DNA of 64,000 bases, taken from assembly GCA_021463145.1 (NCBI GenBank), contig JAJTWZ010000004.1:1-64000 (forward strand). The letters run 5' to 3'. Positions 23,850 through 27,202 of the stretch are shown here, one piece after another; position 1 is the first letter of the stretch; every line of letters starts with the position of its first letter. The DNA is from Blastocatellia bacterium. Its GTDB lineage: Bacteria; Acidobacteriota; Blastocatellia; UBA7656; JADIYM01. The notes under the pieces were generated by a model. It did not search any database, had not been told where the DNA came from, and saw nothing but the letters and a program-made list of their open reading frames with translations. Made by a program: the position numbers and the translations under genes.

Positions 23850-24809
23850 TCAGCTATCCGCCGGCGAATCCTTGCCCTCGCCCGAACCCACTTCCCGCAT
23901 GAAGAAGTCTTCGAGCGAGCTGCGGGTCTGGCTTACGGAGATCAATCGTCCGCCCGCGGCTCGCGCCTTCGCTAGGGCCGACTCGACCATCGCTTCGCTC
24001 GGCACGAGGATCAGAGCGCCGCCCGGAGACTTCGAAATGTCGACACCGTCCGCCCTGAGCCTGCCGAGCGCGTCGTCGCTCAGGCCGGTCACGACGATCT
24101 CCAGTTGCCCACCCCGGCGGTTCAGGATATCGGAGAGACTGCCTGTTTCGACCAGGCGTCCCTGGTTCAGAATCGCCACCTCGTCACAGAGAGCCTCGAC
24201 GTCCGAGAGAATATGAGACGAAAAGAATACCGTCTTGCCGGCATCGCGGATACCAAGGATCAGATCGCGAACCTGACGCCTTCCGATCGGATCCAGACCT
24301 GACATCGGTTCGTCCAGGAACACGACTTCCGGATCGTTCACCAGGGCCTGGGCAAGTCCCGTTCGCTGGAGCATGCCCTTCGAGAACTTTCGCAGCTGCC
24401 GGTCGAACGCGGATTCCTCCAGTCCAACGCTTCCGAACAGTTCGGGAATCCTTCTGGCAAGTGTGACGTCGTCGACGCCCGTCAGCCGGCCATAGTAGTG
24501 CAGCAGCTCACGCGCGGTGAGGTAGTCGTAGAAGTACGCCTGTTCCGGGAGATAACCGATTCGGGCGCGCATTGCGACACTGGAGAGCGGCTCGCCGAGT
24601 ATCCGCGCGGTTCCCGACGTCGGTCGAAGCAGACCCATCAGCAGCTTCAGCGTCGTTGTCTTTCCGGCGCCGTTCGGCCCCAGAAATCCGAAAATAACCC
24701 CCTTGGGAACCTCCAGCGTCAGGCCGTCGAGCACTCGAACGGGCCGCTTCCTGAGGAATCCGATCTCGAAGTCCTTGGTGAGTTCTGCAATTTCGATTGC
24801 TTTCGTCAT
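23850..24809 (-). CDS. ABC transporter ATP-binding protein
   Basis: A 319-residue ATPase of the CcmA/NatA-like (ABC-2) type. Walker A is GPNGAGKTTTLK (about 44-55), Q-loop YLPEQAYFYDYL, signature FSKGMLQRTGLAQAL, Walker B VVFLDEPMSGLDP, H-switch SSHILSDVE. A C-terminal extension of about 100 residues is typical of ABC-2 ATPases. No permease gene is adjacent in this window, so the substrate is unknown. The ATG overlaps the stop of the DciA-like gene (ATGA), so it is the end of that short unit. Convergent with the sigma-54 regulator. Confidence 0.93.
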   Translation of the reverse strand: MTKAIEIAELTKDFEIGFLRKRPVRVLDGLTLEVPKGVIFGFLGPNGAGKTTTLKLLMGLLRPTSGTARILGEPLSSVAMRARIGYLPEQAYFYDYLTARELLHYYGRLTGVDDVTLARRIPELFGSVGLEESAFDRQLRKFSKGMLQRTGLAQALVNDPEVVFLDEPMSGLDPIGRRQVRDLILGIRDAGKTVFFSSHILSDVEALCDEVAILNQGRLVETGSLSDILNRRGGQLEIVVTGLSDDALGRLRADGVDISKSPGGALILVPSEAMVESALAKARAAGGRLISVSQTRSSLEDFFMREVGSGEGKDSPADS

Positions 24810-25270
24810 TTCTCAGGGGGATGCCCGGTGTGCCGGGCGAGGCAGAGCGCCGCCATGCGAAGAAACTGCTCGCGCAGTTCCGGATCGCCGATGACGGCTA
24901 CATCCGGCTCGAGCAGCCTTTTGTACTCTTCGACTCCTTCCACTTCGATAGACTGCTGCTCTTCGCCTCTGGATGCAATAACGGCGATTTCATCGACTCG
25001 GTGGGTCACTCGAGTGACGAGGCGGGCTCCCAATCCTTCGTTTATCCTGAAAAGAAACTTGGGAGCGAGCCTTTCCAGTTGTGTGCACCAGTTTGCATCG
25101 ACGGTCGCGACGTGAAGGGTTCGCCCGTCGTACTCGACTGGCGTGGCGACCCTGCGCGTTGCCGGTCCCGCGGCGTTTGCCCACGCTGCGAAGACGCAGA
25201 GCCGAACAGCCTCCGGAGCGTCCCCGGATTCGCGAACGACTTTCGGAAGCAGCCTGCCAAGCGCGATCAT
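24806..25270 (-). CDS. DciA-like DUF721 protein
   Basis: A 154-residue DUF721 protein. Residues about 1-95 match the DUF721 pattern, with W-A-x-x-x-G-x-x-x-x-x-x-A-T-P-V and the segment VDANWCTQLERLAPKFLFRI. DciA proteins with this domain load the replicative helicase DnaB in bacteria lacking DnaC. That role is inferred from the family; the tail (about 95-154) is specific. It ends by overlapping the ABC ATPase start. The ATG at 25270 has no strong ribosome binding site. Confidence 0.75.
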   Translation of the reverse strand: MIALGRLLPKVVRESGDAPEAVRLCVFAAWANAAGPATRRVATPVEYDGRTLHVATVDANWCTQLERLAPKFLFRINEGLGARLVTRVTHRVDEIAVIASRGEEQQSIEVEGVEEYKRLLEPDVAVIGDPELREQFLRMAALCLARHTGHPPEK

Positions 25271-25367: not shown

Positions 25368-26474
25368 TCAGTGGCTGTGGCCCCCGGCGGCTCCGGCGGC
25401 TCCGGCGGCGCCCAGTTTGGTATATGCCACTCGAGTTTCCTCGACGAACTTGAGCGCAACCGGATCGTCCGGCACGCTTCTGTCCAAGGGAACGGTCCGG
25501 AAGATGTAGCTGGAGATTCCAGCGCTCTTTGCTTCGGCAGCGCGGTACAGCCGGAACTCGGCGAGCCACTTCGTCTGGTTGGCGACGTAGCCGACGACGG
25601 CGTCACCGGCCTCGTCGACACCGTTTATGAGAGGCAGTTGATGCGCGGCGAGTATCAGGTCGATTCCGATCGTCTGAGCTCCGATATTCTTGGCGCTCGG
25701 CCGATCGAGGTAAGCGAGGACTACGATCAGGTCGACCTTCTTCCGCAGGTCCGGCAGCAGCTTGTTGATCGACTCGACCGGATCCAGGAACTTGTAGCCC
25801 GAGTGCACCGTGCCGGCTGGCCCCGCAGGATCCGCGACTCCGACGATCGCCACCTTGAGTGGTTTTGCTCCAAGGCGTTGAGACTTGAGCTCCTCGACAA
25901 GGTAAGGCTTGAAGCCGACCACGTCGGGAGTCGCCGGCACGACGTTGGCCGACACGAGTCGATCGAGAAACGGAAAGTCCTTGGCGGACTGTGAGTGTGC
26001 AGACTTCTTCATCAACTCGGCGAGGTACGGCAGATCGCGATTAGAGACGTTCGCAGCGCCGAACTTGAACTGTTCCAGAGACTTCAGCATCCGTTCGTTC
26101 TTGACGCGCGTCTGCGCCGCCGCTGCAGGGAGGGTCAGATCGTCTGACAGAAAATTGCCCGCGTCCAGTTGAAGAACGGCGACCGAATGGCCAGACTGAT
26201 TTGCGAGTTCGTTTACGTAGCTGACGCGCCGCGCCAGCCCCCCCATGGGGTTGCTCGGTCAGCCACAGGTCTCGAGACTGCCGTGCGTGTCTCCGCTGAA
26301 GTTGATCGTAACCGCGTATCCGTCGTCCGGACCAAGCCGCTCGGCGAGCGCCTTCGAATTCACGGCGGCCTGCGGGGCTCCCAGTTGCGCCTGCACATTC
26401 GCTGTGCTAATCCATGACACGGCAACGAGAATCGCAAGTGCTAGTTTTGCGGTAGTTTGCAGCTTAGTACGCAC
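25368..26474 (-). CDS. Metallophosphoesterase-like secreted protein, predicted selenoprotein (UGA at residue 72)
   Basis: Read through one in-frame TGA (26259-26261) this is a 368-residue exported protein of the calcineurin-like/5'-nucleotidase superfamily. The GTG at 26474 has AGGAG 8 bases upstream and gives a signal peptide (about 1-31). The core starts NFSGDTHGSLETCG-(UGA)-PSNPMGGLARRV. Relatives known to me have C-G-C at that place, so the UGA replaces a Cys codon. Later segments QLDAGNFLSD and AANVSNRD stand for the metal-site blocks, though the usual G-N-H-E is altered, so phosphatase activity is uncertain. A hairpin of bacterial SECIS type follows the UGA at 26219-26239. Frame and similarity continue on both sides, so there is no frameshift. 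A plain nonsense mutation is the alternative. The C-terminus is Ala/Gly-rich and ends GGHSH. Confidence 0.7.
26219..26239 (-). promoter_or_regulatory. Candidate bacterial SECIS hairpin
   Basis: On the minus strand GGCTGGCGC pairs with GCGTCAGCT (9 bp, two G-U pairs) around a GGC loop. Counting from the U of the UGA, the stem is nt 23-31 and 35-43 and the loop nt 32-34, about 28 nt after the UGA. Known bacterial SECIS elements lie directly downstream inside the gene, with a short apical loop, a G in its first two bases, and a distance of roughly 16-37 nt, all of which fit. A shorter GC-rich hairpin (CCCC/GGGG) nearer the UGA could compete. Confidence 0.6.
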
Positions 26475-26579
26475 CTTCGTGCTCCTTTTTCCATTGGCCG
26501 GCGATCGGATCGAATCAGTCGCCTCTTGTATGAATCCCACAACCAAATCCGATGTGATCGCAGGGTGTTTCCGGCGGCA

Positions 26580-26617: not shown

Positions 26618-27202
26618 ATGCCTGAGTCGATCAACCGGTTCATTCTTGCGTCGGCCTCGCCTCGACGGTCCGAGATCCTCACGACTCTGGGGCTCCAGTT
26701 CGACGTGAGACCCGCCGATATCGATGAGCGGCAACTGGCTGGCGAATCGCCCCAGCAGTTCGTCATGCGCACTGCGAATGCCAAAGCGGAGGCAATTTCG
26801 AAGGACGTCCGGGAAGGCGTCATCATCGGAGCCGACACAGCGGTCGTCATCGACGGGCAACCGCTCGGCAAGCCGGCGGATACGGAAGATGCTCGGCGAA
26901 TGCTTCGAATGCTGAGCGGGCGCTGGCACGCGGTTATCACGGGACTGTCCGTTCTCGACGCCGCCACAGGGCGACACTCGGCCGACGTCGAAAAGACGCT
27001 GGTGCGATTCCGCGACCTTACGGATGCCGAGATCGACGACTACATTGCTTCGGGCGAGCCGGCGGACAAGGCCGGCGCCTACGCGATCCAGGGCCGCGGA
27101 ATGCTCTTCGTCACCGAGATCGCGGGGAATTACCAGAACGTGGTCGGACTGCCGGCTCCGCTGCTCGAGCGGCTTGCCTTGCAGGTCGGCGCGCGACTAT
27201 AG
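26618..27202 (+). CDS. Maf family nucleoside triphosphate pyrophosphatase
   Basis: Cleaves non-canonical or pyrimidine nucleoside triphosphates to monophosphates (house-cleaning). The 194-residue product has the Maf hallmarks: ASASPRRSEILTTLGL near the N-terminus, the metal/base segment GADTAVVIDGQPLGKP, and YAIQGRG near residue 150. Subtype (dTTP/UTP versus m7GTP) cannot be settled by eye. ATG at 26618 is the first start after the divergent region. Followed after 20 bases by an unknown small gene, probably in one unit. Confidence 0.93.
   Translation: MPESINRFILASASPRRSEILTTLGLQFDVRPADIDERQLAGESPQQFVMRTANAKAEAISKDVREGVIIGADTAVVIDGQPLGKPADTEDARRMLRMLSGRWHAVITGLSVLDAATGRHSADVEKTLVRFRDLTDAEIDDYIASGEPADKAGAYAIQGRGMLFVTEIAGNYQNVVGLPAPLLERLALQVGARL

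Follow-up and report, generated by a model that had tools for sequence, protein, structure and literature searches.

The UshA-like selenoproteins (COG0737), which carry a CxU motif, were catalogued in 2008 (PMC2398784) and appear again in later reviews (PMC9312934; PMC13188914); no assigned function for this family was found in the literature consulted. In NCBIfam they are represented by the model NF041198, 'UshA-like (seleno)protein' (UshA_like_PCGU), in which a CxU/CxC motif follows the first strand and a C-terminal multiheme part, a tetraheme cytochrome, makes up about the final third of it (profile positions about 352–519). A second model, NF049981 (UshA-like (seleno)protein family 2), is marked by the motif CxxU (PMC13188914). 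In fold, the protein described here is also comparable to the 5′-nucleotidases (UshA, CD73; PDB codes 2z1a, 6xue), which combine an N-terminal metallophosphoesterase domain with a C-terminal nucleotide-binding domain, and to the thiosulfohydrolase SoxB (TIGR04486; PDB code 2wdc).

The gene under study lies on the minus strand of a 64,000-nucleotide stretch of DNA from a Blastocatellia bacterium, termed the window throughout. Of its 369 codons, one internal codon (72) and the terminal one are TGA (Table 1). Translation agrees with a preliminary description, made from the sequence alone, as to the GTG start, the Shine-Dalgarno sequence, the signal peptide and the one in-frame TGA, and the flanks which that description had quoted as same-frame protein, GDTHGSLETCG before the TGA and PSNPMGGLARRV after it, are found as given. 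The window has a GC content of 63% and contains 30 TGA codons that are preceded by at least 70 and followed by at least 200 open codons. Open frames around a TGA are thus uninformative here and were dropped as evidence, so that the case for selenocysteine must rest on homology and RNA. A reassignment of UGA as a sense codon was rejected, as TGA is the terminal codon of 31 of the 51 long, mechanically called ORFs of the window.

Table 1. Features of the selenoprotein locus and its conserved neighbours (window coordinates).
Feature	Position	Strand	Remarks
UshA-like selenoprotein gene	25368..26474	-	368 residues including Sec at 72; stop TGA 25368-25370
Shine-Dalgarno sequence AAGGAG	26482..26487	-	7 nt ahead of the GTG start; read from the sequence
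Predicted signal peptide (export), about residues 1-29	26388..26474	-	assigned by eye from sequence character
C-G-U motif, codons 70-72	26259..26267	-	sole Cys and sole Sec of the protein
UGA, almost certainly decoded as selenocysteine	26259..26261	-	machinery, homology, SECIS
Putative bSECIS stem-loop, 9 bp, GGC triloop 26228-26230	26219..26239	-	loop 28 nt past the UGA
DciA (DUF721) gene	24806..25270	-	context; conserved downstream neighbour
ABC transporter ATPase gene	23850..24809	-	context; conserved second downstream neighbour
Maf gene	26618..27202	+	context; conserved divergent upstream neighbour

NF041198 is the best NCBIfam profile for the window protein (E 1.7e-34), and C-G-U at codons 70–72 corresponds to its CxU/CxC motif after the first strand. 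The C-G-[C/U] motif, the exchange of Sec and Cys, export and the fold region are common to both, whereas the window protein reads TCGU in place of PCGU and is devoid of the multiheme part: it contains no CxxCH, and no ORF with two or more CxxCH motifs occurs elsewhere in the window. Its score of 119.3 bits lies below the curated cut-off of 275. Proteins with a tetraheme domain score 279.3 bits (the orthologue L098) and 268.3 bits (L097), and Sec relatives without this domain 118 bits (L100) and 125 bits (L102). Because the shortfall in score goes along with the missing C-terminal domain, the window protein was filed as a divergent short relative of NF041198; the selenoprotein family is already known, and new here is a divergent, shortened member. 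NF049981 matches weakly (33 bits, cut-off 140) and differs in its CxxU motif from the CxU of the window protein. The window protein has no match in Pfam, including Metallophos and 5_nucleotid_C, and the window has none in Rfam.

The tetraheme domain, assigned to Pfam Cytochrome_C554, is present in 14 of 34 relatives. It is found at the C-terminus of the three syntenic orthologues L097–L099, whose genes lie, as in the window, between a divergent Maf gene on one side and genes for a DciA-type protein and an ABC ATPase, in this order, on the other; these neighbours were recognised by eye from the sequence, with one extra gene in between in L099. Orthology with the window gene is supported by this synteny, and the tetraheme part has probably been lost from the window protein.

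The preliminary description had proposed selenocysteine at codon 72 and named selA, selB, selC and selD as the genes to look for, with the absence of selB or selC speaking against the proposal. All four are present in the host genome, a draft assembly of 173 contigs with a completeness of 100: SelA (557.6 bits, cut-off 268), SelB (337.7 bits, cut-off 242), SelD (340.3 bits, cut-off 125) and a tRNA-Sec (74.3 bits, above the Rfam cut-off) whose anticodon TCA is seen in the sequence. The host selD gene (L023, G000:C96:22929-23858) contains one in-frame TGA close to its start, where the translation is C-A-G-U, and therefore is a second, independent Sec gene in this genome. Just downstream of that TGA a strong hairpin is found, selD being a selenoprotein gene itself. 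The tRNA-Sec gene (L001/L112, G000:C10) adjoins a tRNA-Ala-like gene and a multiheme cytochrome gene, a neighbourhood from which a link between Sec use and multiheme proteins is possible.

Relatives were searched in 396 genomes of the phylum and found in 146; a contig scan with the window protein alone as query returned no matches, whereas a scan with an alignment as query succeeded. Among the closer relatives, the frame is almost always open or interrupted by exactly one in-frame TGA, and in every extracted, aligned row this TGA occupies the column of the second Cys in C-G-C. Over 75 aligned family members this column holds Sec in 39, Cys in 36 and no other residue, while the first Cys of the motif is invariant. 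The expectation that relatives carry C-G-C at this place is thereby borne out, and with it falls the objection that homologues might never have Cys there; that the family may use Sec, also suggested beforehand, had been catalogued before (NF041198; PMC2398784). Independent orthologue genomes share the TGA at the same codon as the window gene, and a quick tree (LG model, no mixture; some of its branches long) requires Sec and Cys to have been exchanged at least 13 times. SelA is encoded in 44 of 45 tested genomes with a one-TGA match, the single exception being 76% complete, and in 19 of 31 genomes with Cys forms only (rows grouped by the author). The named relatives are Blastocatellia/Acidobacteria MAGs.

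The host genome itself harbors four Cys (CGC) paralogues (C57:28503, C99:38124, C99:37231 and C38:3455; L012, L010, L013 and L011), two of which cluster with the window protein on the quick tree, on long branches. Two of the four form a tandem on contig C99, and the set amounts to a local expansion. The Cys-type relatives L103–L109 (GSLETCGCPxRPRG), from deltaproteobacterial/proteobacterial MAGs, form a separate clade; L104, labelled Klebsiella pneumoniae, is apparently a mislabelled MAG.

Downstream of the UGA the sequence can form the hairpin GGCTGGCGC-GGC-GCGTCAGCT, with a calculated fold energy of -14.9 kcal/mol. The published bSECIS model comprises a loop of 3–9 nt with G in the first two positions and a stem of 4–16 bp, located 16–37 nt past the UGA and with an energy of at most -7.5 kcal/mol (PMC13188914). 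The 3-nt GGC loop, the 9 bp, the spacing of 28 nt and the energy all fall within these limits, as the preliminary description had stated for the geometry. The energy as such is ordinary, both in comparison to dinucleotide shuffles (z = -0.81) and to synonymous recodings, 20% of which fold as well. Since these energy-based tests are not significant, covariation was used instead, in a gap-free alignment of 35 distinct Sec genes and 26 distinct Cys genes.

Three stem pairs join a third codon position to a third codon position, and at these silent pairs GC, CG, AT and TA interchange among the Sec genes. They are Watson-Crick in 34/35, 30/35 and 23/35 of the Sec genes (shuffle means 16.6, 18.1 and 9.2; p about 2e-4, the lowest value that the test can give) but in only 7/26, 8/26 and 9/26 of the Cys genes, which is the chance level and not significant. 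Pair counting gives 91% of cells paired compared to at most 50% in slid controls, and 35 double changes occur in the stem compared to 10.9 after shuffling; such covariation figures are inflated by the kinship of the sequences, for which the Cys homologues serve as control. The median stem measures 9 bp in Sec genes and 1 bp in Cys genes (Mann-Whitney p = 1.5e-9). The hairpin is found at the same distance from the UGA in most of the 35 Sec genes and is missing from 25 of the 26 Cys homologues. By virtue of the homology at the Sec/Cys column and the silent-site covariation it stands above chance, and it behaves as a true bSECIS element. Three Sec genes (L038, L047 and L056) do not have the common stem and offer other candidate hairpins with loops 19–23 nt past the UGA; the SECIS position seems to be shifted in them. 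The Cys gene L077 (G339:C25) keeps a 7-bp stem, and the same genome contains the Sec gene L031 (G339:C92); L077 is an apparent recent switch from Sec to Cys with a fossil SECIS.

The Sec machinery, the Sec/Cys exchange at the exact column and the conserved, covarying SECIS together uphold selenocysteine at the C-G-U motif, and the UGA of codon 72 is almost certainly read as such. One could suspect that the TGA stems from faulty sequencing or assembly, or that a recent nonsense mutation has turned a Cys gene into a pseudogene, considering that the host is represented by a single draft assembly of many contigs and contains CGC copies of the family. The recurrence of the TGA in independent genomes, a third-position GC content after the TGA that is gene-like (0.74, window mean 0.73), homology running to the end of the gene and a SECIS that is missing from Cys homologues render this highly improbable. 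The same holds for the UGA being a plain stop, or being read through at a low level without Sec, with two half-proteins as the result. ORF callers do split the selenoprotein gene into fragments and report a 292-aa ORF from an internal ATG at 26246, but the product of that ORF would have neither the signal peptide nor the invariant Cys, and neither the SECIS covariation specific to Sec genes nor the Sec machinery of the host would be accounted for.

AlphaFold prediction of the window protein together with 13 relatives gave a confident model with a pLDDT of 88. A Foldseek search with the predicted fold retrieved the N-terminal domain of 5′-nucleotidases (CD73, UshA, 2z1a) and SoxB with E-values of about 1e-20 to 1e-18, and the window protein accordingly has a predicted metallophosphoesterase/5′-nucleotidase fold. 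Differences to these enzymes are pronounced. The dimetal ligands are mostly lost in the window protein, in comparison to the 5′-nucleotidases as well as to SoxB; the C-terminal nucleotide-binding domain of the former is missing, and the loop behind strand 1 carries C-G-U, which sets the window protein apart from them. The SoxB profile matches weakly (35 bits, cut-off 550).

Conservation of the dimetal ligands (D-x-H, GD, GNHE, H, GHxH) was not found over the 75 members. The first Asp is kept in 43/75 and the His after it in 19/75; the Asp of GGD is retained in 8/75, the His of GNHE in 14/75, the His of the THLG-type motif in 2/75 and the first His of GHxH in 6/75. In the window protein the ligand columns read D-T-H, followed by N, R, Y and one H. 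A nucleotidase homologue from the same genome (L008) keeps all dimetal ligands. Full or almost full conservation is seen for C-G-[C/U], a Pro and the two Gly of P-x-G-G, and 45/75 members have no domain Cys beyond the pair. As the metal ligands are eroded while C-G-[C/U] is invariant, a redox reading is preferred over that of a hydrolase, and dimetal catalysis has probably been lost. Since it retains D-T-H at the first metal motif as well as one His further on, the window protein may still bind some metal. Of the earlier term 'metallophosphoesterase-like', the fold is therefore confirmed by Foldseek and the chemistry is not, given the loss of most metal ligands across the family.

A working metallophosphoesterase, that is a nucleotidase- or SoxB-like hydrolase with Cys and Sec as metal ligands, would be in line with the fold, the weak SoxB match and the retained D-x-H. 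It is nevertheless unlikely in view of the unconserved ligand columns, the unmatched Pfam models Metallophos and 5_nucleotid_C, and a nucleotidase C-terminal substrate domain that is either missing or replaced by a cytochrome. The redox role of Cys70-Sec72 is favoured to a more modest degree. It is suggested by the pairing of a Cys with a Sec, by the export of the protein and by the fusion of relatives to a cytochrome, which points to extracytoplasmic electron transfer. For the complete reading, an exported UshA-like selenoprotein with SECIS-driven Sec insertion, a Cys-Sec redox centre and no dimetal hydrolysis, we estimate a probability of roughly 0.88.

In the proposed mechanism, the SECIS loop 28 nt past the UGA would recruit SelB and Sec-tRNA-Sec, by which selenocysteine would be inserted at codon 72 while the terminal UGA of the same gene would still terminate translation. 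Cys70 and Sec72 would lie in the loop that follows strand 1, at the site which in the superfamily is taken by the Asp-x-His metal ligands. Outside the cytoplasm they could serve as a reversible redox centre of the selenenyl-sulfide (or thiol/selenol) type, and the phosphoesterase scaffold, being demetallated, would not act as a dimetal phosphohydrolase. In related proteins, a fused tetraheme cytochrome domain of the c554 type would accept or donate the electrons; lacking it, the window protein would depend on a separate partner.

The silent-site covariation provides a clean example of a SECIS within conserved coding sequence. For the family, the eroded metal site together with the invariant C-G-[C/U] points to redox chemistry over phosphate hydrolysis. 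Tentatively, the UshA-like selenoproteins might be demetallated phosphoesterases turned into Cys-Sec redox enzymes that exchange electrons, outside the cytoplasm, with a tetraheme cytochrome domain, and the window protein might be a detached version that works with a separate partner.
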